IMG/VR virus record: IMGVR_UViG_3300042519_000275
Location: 1-22,875 of that record
From: a virus
DNA: 22,875 bases
Strand: one strand, 5' to 3'
Under the pieces are notes generated by a model. That model had not been told where the DNA came from, did no database searches, and saw only the letters and a program-made list of their open reading frames with translations. This document shows positions 8,012 to 17,530 of the stretch, piece by piece (position 1 is the stretch's first letter; each line of letters starts with the position of its first letter). Made by a program: the position numbers and the translations under genes.

Positions 8012-8138
8012 ATTCAAGCTAAACAGCAAATCTAAATGGCAAGATGCGTATAGAGTGCTGCAAGCTAACAGCAGAGAGGATGCAATCAAGAAGGCTGACA
8101 TGTGGCCTCCATTAATTAAAGCAGTGCAAGAGATATGA
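7986..8138 (+). CDS. 50-residue small hypothetical protein
   Basis: A 50-codon gene overlapping the upstream membrane gene by 26 nt and joined to the DnaA-like gene by ATGA. The sequence (MKTWKITYKF ... QANSREDAIKKADMW) has a strand followed by a helix, the 'V.A.S.EDAIK.A' pattern common in small ferredoxin-like domains of phage proteins. Function unknown. Confidence 0.55.
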   Translation: MKTWKITYKFKLNSKSKWQDAYRVLQANSREDAIKKADMWPPLIKAVQEI

Positions 8139-8554
8139 ACACATCAATGATAATGGATCTAGCTGAGAAGCATGGACTCAAAGTAAGAAACAGAAAGAGA
8201 GAGCTGGTATATAAGAGATATTATCTTTGGTCAGAGCTTAGAAGATGGCACAGCCTTGATGCCATTGGGAAGATGTTTGGAATGGATCACTGTTCTGTAT
8301 TACATGGACTCAAGCAGCACAACATTTGGATGAGGGCCAAAGACTATGAATATCTAAAGACAATCAATGAGCTGCACAAGGAAGTGCATGAAGATTATCT
8401 GCTACAAATAGAAGAGGACAAAGTGTGGATGTGCGTGGACCATGTATCAGGCAATATGATCACATTGACGCTGAAGCTCAATACAGACGATTCTAGCCAC
8501 TTTCTCGACAAGAGTGGATACATTACTAGGGAGGACTTAAAAGAATTGCTATGA
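8135..8554 (+). CDS. DnaA domain IV-like DNA-binding protein
   Basis: A 139-residue protein. Residues ~18-62 resemble the DnaA C-terminal DNA-binding domain: RNRKRELVYKRYYL and then SLDAIGKMFG-MDHCSVLHGL (40-59), close to the DnaA signature 'S..eIG..FG.rDHsTV.ha'. There is no AAA+ ATPase domain; residues 65-139 are an unrelated soluble part with strands (WMCVDHVSGNMITLTLKL). It lies two genes upstream of the repeat-rich origin candidate and the replicase, so it could recognise origin sites or compete with host DnaA. The motif match is visible; the role is inference. Confidence 0.7.
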   Translation: MNTSMIMDLAEKHGLKVRNRKRELVYKRYYLWSELRRWHSLDAIGKMFGMDHCSVLHGLKQHNIWMRAKDYEYLKTINELHKEVHEDYLLQIEEDKVWMCVDHVSGNMITLTLKLNTDDSSHFLDKSGYITREDLKELL

Positions 8555-8805
8555 GGAACAAATTAAGACGAATGTCAGCTATTGTATATTGCCTTCAACA
8601 AAGGCCGTACACAATTACAAGACTGCATACCAGGATAAATCATATCCTATCCGATAATTATAGTCAGTCATCCATTGAGAAAGATATCTTTATGCTCAGA
8701 GAAGAGTTTGATTGCCCCATTGAGAAATGTCCAGCTGGACTGGTGATCCTAGAGGACTATGACTTCATTGCTAAGCTCACAGAATGGGTGCAGCTGTATG
8801 AATAA
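8551..8805 (+). CDS. Winged-helix (WYL/HTH_11-type) DNA-binding protein
   Basis: An 84-residue protein whose residues ~5-65 resemble the N-terminal winged helix of WYL/DeoR-type regulators: RMSAIVYCLQQRPYTI, then TRLHTRI..ILSDNYSQSSIEKDIFML (shown in part) and a wing 'GLVILEDY'. The effector WYL domain is missing, so it is a minimal DNA-binding unit. It is coupled by ATGA to the DnaA-like gene, and its stop is followed within a few bases by the palindromic repeats, which may be its operators. Confidence 0.65.
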   Translation: MRNKLRRMSAIVYCLQQRPYTITRLHTRINHILSDNYSQSSIEKDIFMLREEFDCPIEKCPAGLVILEDYDFIAKLTEWVQLYE

Positions 8806-9050
8806 TAGGTGTGCACATTGCACACTTGCACAGTGCACACTAGATATTTTGTAAAAAATTACCAAAGAAAAAAAGTGAAAAAACAAAAAAGGTGTGAAAA
8901 GTGTGCACTTTGCTCTGTATCCCTTATAAACACTGAGAAAATGGTGTGAAATTAGGTGTGAAATTAGGTGTGCACATTGCACACCTTGCACAGTAAGAAA
9001 TTAATTAATATTAATATCATGAATAATAAAGTTTTTTTTATATTTGTACA
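8806..9050. repeat. Palindrome/iteron block, candidate replication origin
   Basis: This is the core of the only non-coding stretch over 300 nt (8806-9143). GTGTGCA-CAT-TGCACAC occurs at 8809-8825 and again at 8968-8984, the second extended to GGTGTGCA/TGCACACC (8967-8985). A further palindrome TGCAC-A-GTGCA is at 8827-8837. GGTGTG occurs at 8808, 8890, 8943, 8955 and 8967, the last three with 12-nt spacing (GGTGTGAAATTA twice in tandem). An A+T-rich segment (8995-9045) follows. Together with the DnaA-like protein and replicase on either side, this fits an iteron-type origin, or an operator array. Confidence 0.6.
9039..9046 (+). promoter_or_regulatory. Putative promoter -7 element for the replicase gene
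   Basis: TATATTTG matches the Bacteroidetes -7 consensus TAnnTTTG. No TTTG is present at the expected 19-nt distance upstream, so the promoter may be weak or need an activator bound at the adjacent repeats. Transcription would start near 9053, giving a ~90-nt leader. Confidence 0.5.
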
Positions 9051-9082
9051 TCCTATGCAGAGGATAGTTAAGAAATTATTGA

Positions 9083-9128
9083 AGGCTCTTTCGGCTAGTA
9101 GTGCTGCATCACGAAAACTGAAGGGGCT
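9083..9128 (+). promoter_or_regulatory. Structured leader hairpin before the replicase gene
   Basis: Arms 9083-9094 (AGGCTCTTTCGG) and 9118-9128 (CTGAAGGGGCT) can form 11 pairs with G9085 bulged and several G-U pairs, enclosing a 23-nt loop. It is followed by a T/A-rich tract (TTTATATTTTAT). The shape is that of a weak attenuator or terminator-like element in the leader, 16 nt before the ATG at 9144. Confidence 0.4.
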
Positions 9129-9143
9129 TTTATATTTTATCTC

Positions 9144-11372
9144 ATGACTAAATCATATCTAAGAAAGTTAGCCTCACTGGGTTATTCAATAATACCAGTG
9201 GACCAAGATAAAAGGCCAATAGGATCATGGAAAATAAACCAAACAAAGGCAAGATCAGCTGATGAGGTTGAGCAATTGGATTCACCATTGTATGGATTAG
9301 TTACTGGTGTTAATGATGTGGAATGCATTGATGTTGATCTCAAGGTCATTGTCGGACTGCAAGAGCAGAAAGAATGGTGGAAAGAATATCTATCTTTTAT
9401 CAATGACAATATTGAGGACTTCGCTGATAAGGTAGTAATTGCCAAGACAAAGAATGCTGGATATCATATTCTGTACAAGTGTAAATTTCCAGCTGGCAAT
9501 ACAAAGATAGCTACATTAAAAGGCAAGAAAGAGGCTATTATTGAATCAAGAGGCACTGGAGGAATGGTGGTGCTATATGATAATTTTTTGTATCAGAAAA
9601 GCTATCATGAGATTGACTATATCAGTGAACAAGAGAGGGATATCATTTGGTCCATATCAAAGACATTCAATCACATTGATAATGTCAAGATTGATGCTCC
9701 TAAAAAAAGTGAATACAAGGCCACATCAGAGAATGATATCACACCTTGGGTTGACTATAACTTGAGACATTCAGCAATGGACCTAATCAGTGATGAGTTT
9801 ACTATTGTAAGGAATACATCCACAAACTACATCATCAAGAGACATGGTGCCACATCACCACATTCAGGATATGTCTACAAGGATAGTGGATGCATGTATC
9901 TATTCAGCACTGGAACATTGTATCCTAATGAGCAGCTGCTGTCACCATTTGCAATTTATGCCTATAAGTATCACAATGGTGATATGACAAAAGCAGCATC
10001 TGATATCTATTCTCAAGGATATGGTACCAGGAAGATTCCTAAAGTAGACTTCAAGAATGAGGTGCCTGAAGTACAGATTGATAGAATACAATTCCCTCTT
10101 GACATCTTTCCTCATGAGATCCAGCAGTACATCATTGAGTCAGCCAATACATTAGGTTTGTCAATTGATTACATGGGATCAGCTTTCATTTGGATGGCAT
10201 CAGTTATCATTGGTAATTCTGCTAGGATTGAAGTCAAGCCAGGATGGCAAGAGATTGCAACAGTATGGATTGCGATAGTTGGTAAACCAGGTATAGGAAA
10301 AACGCCTTCTATCAATCAGATGATTTTCCCATTGAGAGAGGTGAATGTCAGAGAGCAGAAAGAATATGTGAAGCAATATGCCAAGTGGAGAGAATATGAG
10401 GCACTGGATAAGAAAGAAAAGCAATATGCTGAAGAGATAACAAAGCCAGTTAGTAAGCAGTTTCTTGTTGGTGATATTACTCTTGAAGCTCTTGTGGACC
10501 TACATGAGCAGAACCCCAATGCTGTGGGAATATTTAAGGATGAGCTCGCTGGATGGTTTAAGGACATGAACAAGTACAGACAAGGATCTGATCTTGAGTT
10601 TTGGCTATCATCATGGTCAGGCACTAGCATATCTTTGAATCGTAAAACATCCAAGAGTGCATTTGTTGACAAGCCATTCATTCCAGTGCTAGGCGGTATA
10701 CAGCCATCAGTATTTGAGGACTTCACCACTGGTGACAATAAAGAGAATGGATTTGTGGATAGGATTCTCATCAGTTATCCTGAGCTAAATGTAAACCACT
10801 ATAATAACAAGCATATTGAAGAGGATATTATTGAATGGTATAGATCCTTTGTCATAAACTTTAGAGATTCTATACAGCGCAATCTGTTGAAATTTAATGA
10901 CAAAGGTGAGATTGAATCAACAGTATCTAAGTTTGAAAGCAAGGCAGTAGCTGAATGGATACGGATCCATGATCAGATTACTGATATTCAGAATTCAGAT
11001 GATGAGAATGAGTACATGAAATCAATGCTACCTAAACAAAAGAGCTACATCCCAAGATTCGCATTGATAATCAACACAATTTGGTCAGCATTTGATGACT
11101 CAATCAAGATGGGTATAGTAAAAACTGATAGTTTATTGAGAGCTGAAAAGCTATCTCATTATTTTATCAACATGAGTAAGTTAGTAAAAAGAGATGTTAA
11201 AGAGAAAAACAATCTCAAGCAGATAGCAAGATCAGCTGGATCAAATACTCATGATCAATTCATGGCCATGTATAAAGCAAATCCAAATATTAATCGCACC
11301 ACAGCATCTGAGATCCTTGAAGTATCTAGGAGGACAATTCAGAACTGGGTTAAAAAACTAGAGAAAGAATGA
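9144..11372 (+). CDS. PrimPol-DUF3987 primase/helicase replication protein
   Basis: A 742-residue fusion replicase. Residues ~1-160 resemble a bifunctional primase/polymerase (PrimPol) domain: GYSIIPVDQDKRPIGSW (13-29), the acidic motif CIDVDLK (61-67, Asp63/Asp65), NAGYHILYK (104-112, His108) and IESRGTGGMVVLY (133-145). After a middle region, residues ~320-690 are a DUF3987-type P-loop ATPase: Walker A GKPGIGKT (380-387), a Walker-B-like GIFKDE (462-467), and PVLGGIQP (514-521). The last 30 residues (NINRTTASEILEVSRRTIQN onwards) form an HTH. It would prime and unwind phage DNA at the adjacent origin candidate. Confidence 0.88.
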   Translation: MTKSYLRKLASLGYSIIPVDQDKRPIGSWKINQTKARSADEVEQLDSPLYGLVTGVNDVECIDVDLKVIVGLQEQKEWWKEYLSFINDNIEDFADKVVIAKTKNAGYHILYKCKFPAGNTKIATLKGKKEAIIESRGTGGMVVLYDNFLYQKSYHEIDYISEQERDIIWSISKTFNHIDNVKIDAPKKSEYKATSENDITPWVDYNLRHSAMDLISDEFTIVRNTSTNYIIKRHGATSPHSGYVYKDSGCMYLFSTGTLYPNEQLLSPFAIYAYKYHNGDMTKAASDIYSQGYGTRKIPKVDFKNEVPEVQIDRIQFPLDIFPHEIQQYIIESANTLGLSIDYMGSAFIWMASVIIGNSARIEVKPGWQEIATVWIAIVGKPGIGKTPSINQMIFPLREVNVREQKEYVKQYAKWREYEALDKKEKQYAEEITKPVSKQFLVGDITLEALVDLHEQNPNAVGIFKDELAGWFKDMNKYRQGSDLEFWLSSWSGTSISLNRKTSKSAFVDKPFIPVLGGIQPSVFEDFTTGDNKENGFVDRILISYPELNVNHYNNKHIEEDIIEWYRSFVINFRDSIQRNLLKFNDKGEIESTVSKFESKAVAEWIRIHDQITDIQNSDDENEYMKSMLPKQKSYIPRFALIINTIWSAFDDSIKMGIVKTDSLLRAEKLSHYFINMSKLVKRDVKEKNNLKQIARSAGSNTHDQFMAMYKANPNINRTTASEILEVSRRTIQNWVKKLEKE

Positions 11373-14870: not shown

Positions 14871-15220
14871 TATCAAATGAGCTGATGAGCCAGGTGCAGA
14901 GATTTATGAAGACTAGATCCTTTGCACTGAATGAAGAGCTAAAAGAGGAGCTGTCCATGTGGCTCAAGTTAAACAAGAATATAGTGCTCAATAAAAGATG
15001 TGGCACATGCCTACGGAATGCAATGAGAGACTTGTCTGCCCATATTCAATCAAATATCAACACAGAGATCAAACCAGCTAAGATTCAGTTTATTGGAACA
15101 AAACAATATAACTATGAGAGCATGAGCTACAATGATATGAAGGCACTGGCAAAAGATAGAGGACTAAACTTAGGAGCAGCACCAAAGAAAGCTGACCTAC
15201 TTAATGCATTGAAATCATGA
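14867..15220 (+). CDS. Protein with C-terminal SAP/HeH-like domain
   Basis: A 117-residue protein. The N-terminal helical half contains a CGTC pair (45-48; KRCGTCLRNAMRDL). The C-terminus (residues ~84-117, SMSYNDMKALAKDRGLNLGA then PKKADLLNALKS) has the pattern of SAP or HeH/LEM-like helix-extended-helix DNA-binding domains. The same arrangement of a Cys pair plus SAP-like tail is, from memory, seen in other Bacteroidetes phages. It may be a DNA-associated accessory factor; precise role unknown. Confidence 0.55.
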   Translation: MISNELMSQVQRFMKTRSFALNEELKEELSMWLKLNKNIVLNKRCGTCLRNAMRDLSAHIQSNINTEIKPAKIQFIGTKQYNYESMSYNDMKALAKDRGLNLGAAPKKADLLNALKS

Positions 15221-15936
15221 TTGTAGCTCCTATTCCAGTGAATGGCAGAAGGCCACTGCTCAAGATTACAATCACAAGACTTCAGAAGGTAGGAGTTAAA
15301 GTCATCTGCATGGGCCATGATCCCGAAGATAAAGAGCTATGCATCAACCTAGGTGCCGAGTGGATAGAGATATCCAATGATCCGCTAGGTGCGAAGTGGA
15401 ATGCTGGATTCATGGCAGCTAAGAAATACAATCCTAGTGGAGTGCTGTTTGTTGGCTCATCTGATTGGGTTTCAGATAATTACATCCAAGAGGCTGAAGA
15501 TAAGCTCAAAGAGTTTGACATGGTAGGAAAGCTAGGATGTCACTTCATTGATGTGGATGATAAGATCAGACTTGTCAACTGGACTGGATACGGCAAAGGA
15601 CCAAGATCCTATGAGCCAATAGGTATTGGCAGAATGCTATCCAATAGATTCCTTGACAAGATAAACTGGCAGCCATTTGATAAGAGATTGAACAGCGGAC
15701 TTGATTGGGCCATGTGGCTCAGAGCAATCATCAGTGATGCATCCATTGGGATATTCGATGCAGATGAGATACAATTCTTGTCAATCAGTACAGATAAGTG
15801 GGAGAATAAACATAAATTTGAGGATCATTGGACTGGCAAATTAAAGAGTGAACGCATAACTGGCAAAGAGCAGATTGCATTCCTTCAGTCATTCCCTGAG
15901 ATTTATGATTTACAAAATGAACTATGCGCAGAGTAA
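15217..15936 (+). CDS. Glycosyltransferase-like protein (GT-A type)
   Basis: A 239-residue protein with the look of a GT-A glycosyltransferase or related nucleotide-sugar enzyme: an N-terminal Rossmann-like start (MIVAPIPVNGRRPLLKITIT), GVKVICMGHDPE, then DPLGAKWNAGFMAAKKY (55-71) and VLFVGSSDWVSDNYI (76-90), where Asp83 could be the metal/UDP-binding acid. A downstream WFD-type region (NSGLDWAMWLRAI) fits the acceptor side. It heads a three-gene cassette with a methyltransferase and a PP-loop enzyme. The target could be phage DNA, the virion or a host glycan; the sequence does not tell. Confidence 0.6.
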   Translation: MIVAPIPVNGRRPLLKITITRLQKVGVKVICMGHDPEDKELCINLGAEWIEISNDPLGAKWNAGFMAAKKYNPSGVLFVGSSDWVSDNYIQEAEDKLKEFDMVGKLGCHFIDVDDKIRLVNWTGYGKGPRSYEPIGIGRMLSNRFLDKINWQPFDKRLNSGLDWAMWLRAIISDASIGIFDADEIQFLSISTDKWENKHKFEDHWTGKLKSERITGKEQIAFLQSFPEIYDLQNELCAE

Positions 15937-16463
15937 AGGATAAAATAAACACCAACAGCATGGTATTTTGGGATGACTACTATGCTAGTGTTGATATTGA
16001 GGAGGATAGGCTGATAATCTATGAGCAACTGTCTGAGATCCTAAACCACATAAAATTCAAGACTATCCTAGAGATTGGATGTGGCACTGGCATAGGAGCT
16101 GAATATCTGAAAAGTAAGTTTGATTGCATCTATACTGCATCAGACTTCTCAATGATAGCTGTCAACAAAGCTGCTGACAAAGCGGATCACATTCAGCTAC
16201 TAGATATCAGAACAGATGAGCCATCCAGTCAATACGATGTGATTATCATTGCAGAAACACTAGAGCATCTTGAGAATCCATTTGAGGTGATTGACAAATG
16301 CAACAAATATTGTAAATATCTTGTGCTATCTTTGCCACTGGATGAGCCTGAAGATTGTGATGCTGAACATATTTGGTACAATATTAATCCTATAGACTTT
16401 GCTGATTACAATATACACATGGTCAATACAAACGAAAGCTATTTTCAAATAATTATAACATGA
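15924..16463 (+). CDS. Class I SAM-dependent methyltransferase
   Basis: A 179-residue methyltransferase. Motif I is ILEIGCGTGIGAEYL (48-62), an acidic end of strand 2 is near TASDFSM (71-77), and motif IV-like DVIIIAETLEHLENP (105-119) resembles small-molecule (UbiE/type 11-like) rather than DNA methylases, which would show DPPY/NPPY. The N-terminal 'VFWDDYYAS' is common in type-11 enzymes. It overlaps the glycosyltransferase-like gene by 13 nt and the PP-loop gene by ATGA, so the three are co-translated. The C-terminus is short for the family. Confidence 0.78.
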   Translation: MRRVKDKINTNSMVFWDDYYASVDIEEDRLIIYEQLSEILNHIKFKTILEIGCGTGIGAEYLKSKFDCIYTASDFSMIAVNKAADKADHIQLLDIRTDEPSSQYDVIIIAETLEHLENPFEVIDKCNKYCKYLVLSLPLDEPEDCDAEHIWYNINPIDFADYNIHMVNTNESYFQIIIT

Positions 16464-17530
16464 AAAAAGAATGTAAAAGATGCCTATTCACTTCTGACTT
16501 CGCTGTCATAGGTAGTAAGCAATGCAACTATTGTGATCTACATGATGAGCTACAGCAGCAGTCAAATCCTGAAGAGCTCAATGGAGTTATCAACAGAATC
16601 AGAGAGCATGGCTATGGTGACAAATACGATTGCATTATGGGCATCAGCGGAGGTCTTGATAGCTCAGTGCTACTGTACACTGCTGTGCGTTACTGGGGAC
16701 TCAAGCCACTAGTGATCCACTTCGATAACAACTGGAATGCACCACAAGCTGTGCACAATATGCAGCAGCTCATCAAAAAGCTAAATGTGGATGCAATCAC
16801 CTACCAGGTGAACAAATCAGAATATGACAAACTCAATGAAGCATTTCTTTACGCTGGACTGCCTGATGCAGATATCCCCAATGACATAGCCATGACAAAG
16901 CTGATGTACGATACTGCACACAAGTACAAGATCAAGTACATTCTCAATGGTCATGACTTCCGTACTGAGGGATCAACACCAGCATCATGGACCTATATGG
17001 ATGCCAAGTATATCAGATCAGTCTACAAGGCATATACACAAGCTGAGCTAACTAATTATCCACTATTCACATTCAAGGACCAACTGTACTATGCACTGAA
17101 GGGTATCAAGAATGTTAGGCCATTCCACTATGGATTTGATAGAGACACAATGGAGGCTGAAATGAAACGACTGATCCAATGGCAAGACTATGGCGGAAAG
17201 CATTGTGAGAATGTTTACACTGAGTTTGTAGGTAGCTTTCTACTGCCTAATAAATTTGGCATTGATAAGAGAATAGTATACCTTTCTGCACAAGTCAGAT
17301 CAGGCAGATTGACAAAGCAACAAGCTAGAGAGCTGTTCGATGTCAAGCCAGAGTTTGATATGACTAAGCTGGGAGAATACGAATCAAAAATAAATGCACT
17401 AATTAACCTTCGCAAAGGTGATAGAGCCAAATATGAGAAGTACAACTTCAAAGCCTATAGGCCACTGATATGGATCCTGGCAAAGATGAAGGTGGTGCCG
17501 TATACATTTTACACTAAATATTGCAAGTAA
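16460..17530 (+). CDS. PP-loop ATPase, N-acetyl-sugar amidotransferase-like
   Basis: A 356-residue PP-loop enzyme resembling the WbpG/PseA N-acetyl-sugar amidotransferase family of LPS and flagellin glycan pathways. N-terminal Cys pairs CKRC (5-8) and CNYC (22-25) form a likely zinc site. The PP-loop is GISGGLDSSVLLY (61-73). ILNGHDFRTEG (161-171) and YGGKHCENVYTEF (residues ~236-248) also fit the family. Such enzymes normally use ammonia from HisH/HisF-like partners, none of which is visible here. It is the last gene of the sugar/methyl cassette before packaging genes. Confidence 0.75.
   Translation: MKKECKRCLFTSDFAVIGSKQCNYCDLHDELQQQSNPEELNGVINRIREHGYGDKYDCIMGISGGLDSSVLLYTAVRYWGLKPLVIHFDNNWNAPQAVHNMQQLIKKLNVDAITYQVNKSEYDKLNEAFLYAGLPDADIPNDIAMTKLMYDTAHKYKIKYILNGHDFRTEGSTPASWTYMDAKYIRSVYKAYTQAELTNYPLFTFKDQLYYALKGIKNVRPFHYGFDRDTMEAEMKRLIQWQDYGGKHCENVYTEFVGSFLLPNKFGIDKRIVYLSAQVRSGRLTKQQARELFDVKPEFDMTKLGEYESKINALINLRKGDRAKYEKYNFKAYRPLIWILAKMKVVPYTFYTKYCK

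Follow-up and report, generated by a model that had tools for sequence, protein, structure and literature searches.

A repeat array beside a phage primase-helicase gene as a probable replication origin whose repeat words vary with the predicted recognition helix of the replicase

Results

The locus and its array

The window analysed here is the entire 22,875-bp record of a virus that is a Bacteroidetes-type phage. An array of short repeated words lies between two small genes and a replicase gene, and the features of the locus are as follows:

8135 to 8554, + strand: DnaA domain IV-like protein, without the AAA+ domain
8551 to 8805, + strand: small protein of 84 aa, without a family match
8809 to 8825: left palindrome GTGTGCA-CAT-TGCACAC, with the words as an inverted pair (read from the sequence)
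8827 to 8840: TGCACAGTGCACAC, an imperfect third palindrome plus one more word on the − strand (8834-8840)
8846 to 8890: A-rich stretch separating the left from the middle words, with A/T-rich stretches at the equivalent place in relatives
8891 to 8907, + strand: word pair GTGTGAA (8892) and GTGTGCA (8901)
8913 to 8936: non-repeat block CTCTGTATCCCTTATAAACACTGA inside the array, with at most five mismatches in many relatives whose words differ
8943 to 8966, + strand: two direct iterons GGTGTGAAATTA with a 12-bp period, continuous with the right palindrome
8966 to 8986: right palindrome AGGTGTGCACATTGCACACCT
8994 to 9046: A+T-rich segment (AT 0.80-0.86), a candidate unwinding region that ends 3′ in promoter-like TATATTTG (9039-9046)
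9047 to 9140, + strand: predicted H-type pseudoknot RNA with a terminator-like 3′ hairpin and U-run (from covariation and shuffles); stem A 9055-9060/9104-9109, stem B 9080-9094/9118-9132
9144 to 11372, + strand: replicase with an AEP Prim-Pol domain, DUF3987 (putative helicase), and a C-terminal helix-turn-helix (HTH) (from Pfam and PHROGs)
11328 to 11366, + strand: putative recognition helix of the C-terminal HTH, residues 729-741, RRTIQNWVKKLEK (from covariation, the predicted HTH, and array/replicase exchange)

The first-pass annotation had described the repeats from the letters of the sequence, and its description held up on recounting. The palindrome GTGTGCACATTGCACAC (GTGTGCA-CAT-TGCACAC) is exact at 8809-8825 and 8968-8984, 159 nt apart, with no further copies elsewhere in the contig at two or fewer mismatches; the third palindrome, TGCACAGTGCA, is present at 8827-8837; and the five + strand copies of GGTGTG fall at 8808, 8891, 8943, 8955, and 8967, of which the last three are spaced 12 nt apart, with one extra copy on the − strand at 8980. 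The A+T-rich segment was likewise recovered (approximately 8981-9056, AT 0.80-0.86 vs. 0.61 for the contig). The word GTGTG[CA]A occurs nine times in the 176 bp from 8809 to 8984 vs. four times in the other 22.7 kb, and a density of six copies of one 7-mer per 200 bp was reached once when the whole contig was shuffled 200 times with dinucleotides preserved. The array has two hallmarks of an iteron origin, being composed of several short direct repeats in an intergenic position near a putative initiator gene, with an A+T-rich region adjoining the repeats. A motif resembling TAnnTTTG, which we take to be the Bacteroidetes -7 type promoter element, is found at the place equivalent to TATATTTG in most relatives. 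This promoter-like site, the conserved non-repeat block, and the pseudoknot-forming stretch are additions to the first-pass annotation.

Among the neighbouring genes, the label of DnaA domain IV-like protein was borne out by a match to PF08299 (E = 1.5e-5, below its gathering score), by profile matches to the solved DnaA structures 8btg and 1j1v, and by a Foldseek search with the predicted fold, in which the top four matches were all DnaA DNA-binding domains. The protein is 139 aa long, with a helical DnaA-IV-like part and a small C-terminal extension, and at this length it holds no AAA+ ATPase domain III; by profile and predicted structure, it is a real relative of DnaA domain IV with the HTH fold. 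The 84-aa protein had been called winged-helix, a label for which Pfam and PHROG searches returned no match. The third neighbour had been read as a PrimPol-helicase, and Pfam finds in it both Prim-Pol, as the AEP family PF09250, and DUF3987. Its C-terminal HTH is indicated by a weak Pfam match to HTH_11 and by the predicted structure, which has weak Foldseek matches to HTH regulators and places the residues that vary among relatives at the start of the recognition helix. When the replicase was searched against isolate phages and plasmids, it gave distant partial matches only, and hence no cultured relative with data emerged; nor did an experimental study of the family come to light.

One layout and many words in related phages

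Approximately 160 related loci, retrieved via the replicase and via both small proteins, were compared. In most of the closer relatives, an array of like layout with a lineage-specific word lies upstream of the PrimPol-DUF3987 replicase. The shared order begins with left words or a palindrome, an A/T-rich stretch, further words, and a 24-nt block like CTCTGTAACCCTTATAAACACTGA, and continues with direct iterons spaced by roughly one helical turn, a palindrome, the TAnnTTTG site, often an RNA-like element, and then the gene. The words by lineage are GTGTGCA (more generally GTGTG[CA]A), GTGTGAAA, GTGTAAAG, GTGTAACA, GTGGGACA, GTGTAACC, GTG[GC]GACA, GTGTGTAA, GTGTGCCC, and CTGTAAAC, with GGTTTAAA or GGTTGCAA in distant relatives. 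Conservation of the repeats, which had been proposed as a check on the origin reading, is seen in the closest relatives, whose replicases (99%) retain the words; with more distant replicases, the layout is retained and the word is altered in step with the replicase's own C-terminal helix. Three loci (L008, L009, and L016) have only weak arrays, and many distant relatives (e.g., L310-L319) have no array within 1.3-3 kb upstream of the replicase.

Several minor observations were made in these loci. A plain scan for the palindrome gave 16 matches, several of them in other contigs. In one distant relative (L314), a short unit around TTATCCAACGCTGATTTA is repeated about 20 times in 350 bp, approximately 1,150 bp upstream of the replicase and unlike the other arrays. 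In six loci (L010, L045, L046, L059, L072, and L074), a gene that by eye resembles an HNH/NUMOD homing endonuclease lies just upstream of the replicase, separating it from the array or RNA element.

Exchange of the array together with the replicase

The annotation had proposed one of the two small proteins as the factor that recognises the array, and the DnaA domain IV-like protein, or alternatively the 84-aa protein, might accordingly act as its initiator or master regulator. In most close relatives, the array is directly preceded by the DnaA-like gene, whose product resembles DnaA DNA-binding domains in its predicted fold, and TGTG is common to the words and to half of the DnaA box. Against this stands a set of phages in which both small proteins nearly match those of the window (93-99% identity for the DnaA-like protein, with its recognition helix unchanged, and 96-100% for the second) but which carry an unrelated AATCGG array without GTGTG[CA]A words; the downstream replicase in these phages is a different primase-helicase of 791 aa with BT4734-like_N, PriCT_1, and DUF5906 domains. 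In an oriC-like arrangement, the words would follow the phage's DnaA-like protein; here the array is replaced and the DnaA-like helix stays identical. Arrays also persist without the DnaA-like gene: in one complete relative (G006, end overlap 123 bp), the array is present and no DnaA-like protein was found in the most sensitive search; in L031-L037, arrays are present and a DnaA-like protein was not seen; and the gene was not seen in 48 of 120 array loci, which are partial loci. As for the 84-aa protein, only 16 of the first loci have it upstream of their array. Because the array switches with the replicase while both small proteins stay 93-100% identical, we do not regard them as the readers, and recognition by either is scarcely credible; on this comparison, they are neighbours that the array does not require. 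The DnaA-like protein had also been considered as the reader on the grounds that the words resemble half DnaA boxes, a candidate that was dropped in view of the arrays lacking this protein and of the array/replicase exchange.

The exchange suggests that array and replicase are swapped as whole modules under an unchanged DnaA-like protein. Another complete relative (G019, the same phage as L117) has AATCGG and GTGTGCA arrays in tandem (L117 6256-6700) and encodes only the 742-aa replicase, which adjoins the GTGTG array, with small proteins 85.6% and 81% identical to those of the window. The tandem arrays are the pattern expected of a recombination junction and are probably a relic of recombination.

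Two relatives (L014 5075-5494 and L015 890-1309) have DnaA-like proteins with Lys or Ser at the equivalent of E. coli DnaA D433 (MKHCSV and ISHCTV) at a position where Asp is usual. Their words are TGCGACA/TGGGACA, and a link to the D433 change may be a coincidence of lineage.

Covariation of the word with the replicase recognition helix

The predicted recognition helix of the replicase reads SRRTIQNW in the window, and across lineages, helix and word change together. Residues 729-734 ranked first among 584 variable six-residue segments after correction for whole-protein distance; in that register-fixed scan, one segment that hardly varies stood above the helix until the variability filter was applied, and in a fully automatic register-free scan of 7-mer distances, probably too noisy, the helix was not among the top segments. 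Across 38 helix/word units, in which the words were registered by hand with the helices already seen and for which p-values are optimistic because the units share ancestry, helix distance was correlated with word distance given the distance of the replicase body (partial Mantel r = 0.39, permutation p = 0.0005), and the reverse test, body given helix, explained little (0.07, p 0.10); within the same units, Arg at the second helix residue goes with G5 of the word (Fisher p = 1e-4), Arg at the sixth with ACA at 6-8 (p = 1e-5), and Leu, Val, or Thr at the first with a GGT- rather than a GTG-type word (p = 2e-6). The Arg-G5 rule was written down prior to the retrieval of new loci, and in those with clear arrays G5 was present in 4/4 Arg types vs. 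0/10 others (exact p 0.001).

Diverged lineages with like helices share words. The window and L329 both have SRRTIQN and GTGTGCA with replicase bodies 54% identical, L037 and L251 have the helix SRKTIYE and the word GTGTAACA, and L035 and L047 have the same or nearly the same helix and the common word GTGTGAAA. An exception is L033, which has Arg at the second position and mainly GTGTAAAG. In L039 and L060, the same array is found with a different HTH, a pair that does not discriminate since both HTH types occur in the group associated with CTGTAAAC. Comparison among relatives thus supports the view that the word belongs to the replicase and that its spelling follows the recognition helix, and the predicted C-terminal HTH is a better candidate for the reader than the small proteins.

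The words could alternatively be single-stranded template sites at which Prim-Pol primes, rather than duplex binding sites. Most words start with GTG, and the NrS-1 PrimPol primes at GTG(A/G) and TTTGGTTA (PMC8718748). We consider this very unlikely, as the variable part of the word is best tracked by the C-terminal helix and not by an N-terminal segment, the conserved GTG is absent from CTGTAAAC, GGTTTAAA, and the AATCGG arrays, and palindromic pairing suggests binding to duplex DNA.

A conserved block and a predicted pseudoknot RNA

The non-repeat block inside the array has the consensus CTCTGnAACCCTTATAAACAYTGA; in shuffled regions, the best match averages 9.9 mismatches with a minimum of 5. 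The block is inverted in three relatives (L034, L077, and L334), so it probably acts as an orientation-independent DNA site, and its conservation points to it probably being the site of a conserved factor. As a lead only, this factor could perhaps be host DnaA, given that TTATAAACA resembles a DnaA box.

The predicted pseudoknot lies between the TAnnTTTG promoter-like site and the replicase gene. In ten close relatives, 19 of the 19 pairs are kept in every sequence and four pairs are changed on both sides; shuffled controls reached the observed value in 0/500 cases for cells paired, in 0/500 for the covariation score, and in 185/500 for the count of such doubly changed pairs. When 16 sequences from close and diverged relatives were examined, a pseudoknot of like layout outscored nearly all dinucleotide shuffles, and distant relatives have the same layout with unrelated stem sequences. 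An Rfam search with eight source sequences gave no family at the gathering score; a full-length similarity to RT-14 is sub-threshold and unproven (24.4 bits for window 8985-9129 and 24.8 for L115 495-638, gathering 48.1). The pseudoknot is retained where array and replicase are exchanged, and it may serve the replicase as an attenuator or as a copy-control RNA.

Origin or operator

We think it likely that the array is the iteron part of a replication origin that is read by the C-terminal HTH of the replicase, and that it is probably also the replicase's operator. Copies of the replicase would use the HTH to dock on the GTGTG[CA]A words, which form inverted pairs within the palindromes and direct iterons with a 12-bp period, and would then load at the adjacent A+T-rich DNA, unwind it, and prime synthesis. 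Binding at the array would probably autoregulate the replicase gene as well, because the array is upstream of that gene's own promoter. The use of the array as an origin in vivo is inferred from comparative sequence evidence. The proposal of an iteron origin in the first-pass annotation is supported insofar as the layout is conserved beside the replicase and array and replicase are exchanged together; the skew check that it had named lends no support, as the cumulative GC skew of the window climbs throughout with no minimum near the array and the detrended minima of complete relatives lie away from it, a measure that is not decisive where genes are mostly on one strand.

The skew, lacking an origin signal, would also suit an array that is an operator only, at which the replicase or a repressor controls the replicase promoter and replication starts elsewhere. 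The array is just upstream of promoter-like TATATTTG and, in many lineages, of the attenuator-like pseudoknot RNA, and palindromes are typical of operators. Word identity, however, tracks the replicase and not a repressor gene, and the direct iterons by A+T-rich DNA, the block found in either orientation, and the persistence of the array beside a primase-helicase are a better fit to an origin, a function that is itself compatible with autoregulation. We therefore judge a role as operator alone to be unlikely.

Discussion

The nearest functional parallel to the proposed origin is the alpha protein of P4, which has primase, helicase, and winged-helix on one protein and binds origin repeats, unwinds, and primes (PMC4234260). 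The phage replicase similarly has primase, putative helicase, and a predicted C-terminal DNA-binding domain on one chain; the primase of alpha is of the TOPRIM type, whereas here AEP Prim-Pol is joined to DUF3987. The replicase would thus work like P4 alpha but is not classed as a member, since its primase is AEP-type, and in contrast to P4 the word in the phage family shifts from lineage to lineage along with the recognition helix. ORF904 of the crenarchaeal plasmid pRN1 also has an AEP primase-polymerase, helicase, and C-terminal winged helix on one chain, and its binding motifs were stated to await identification (PMC4234260). In pRN1, the origin lies downstream of the gene and consists of a large stem-loop with no iterons, whereas the iteron array here is upstream. 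The fusion of an AEP primase with DUF3987 is shared with the PrimPol-PV1 supergroup (PrimQH, All3500), in whose proteins DUF3987 is predicted to be a helicase; for a relative, PolpTN2, the same paper speculates that the C-terminal winged helix recognises the origin, and it nowhere uses the word "iteron" (PMC5862659).

A phage AEP replicase with sequence-specific initiation is likewise found in NrS-1, for which two copies of its 8-nt site have been put forward as a candidate origin (PMC7102993). The NrS-1 PrimPol differs in reading its template via a helix-bundle domain, with no iteron array described there. In lambda, the O protein recruits the host helicase and is not known as a primase-helicase itself, and a lambda-type ori is located inside the O gene. 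The O initiators of lambdoid phages (lambda and the Stx phages P27 and 933W) bind iterons near their own gene, and origin and O differ between phages (PMC7466680).

How AEP primase-helicase replicons choose their origins has so far been a matter of speculation (PMC5862659, PMC4234260). Hundreds of related phages hold natural variants of helix and word, so that one small domain and short oligonucleotides would suffice for a direct test of the specificity determinant. If the proposed origin is confirmed, origins could be located in uncultured Bacteroidetes phages, replication types could be read from sequence, and a route would be opened to orthogonal replicons for laboratory use. More tentatively, and with a good deal less confidence than in the origin itself, we raise the possibility that the words and the replicase helix, and perhaps also the pseudoknot RNA, are diversifying type determinants, such that co-infecting related phages would not fire or repress each other's origins and a simple residue-to-base code would predict the word from the helix. 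Such determinants, if real, would be the replication counterpart of heteroimmunity or plasmid incompatibility.

Elsewhere in the window, 15217-17530 holds a cluster of genes that by eye resemble a glycosyltransferase, a methyltransferase, and an N-acetyl sugar amidotransferase, possibly for the modification of surface sugars.
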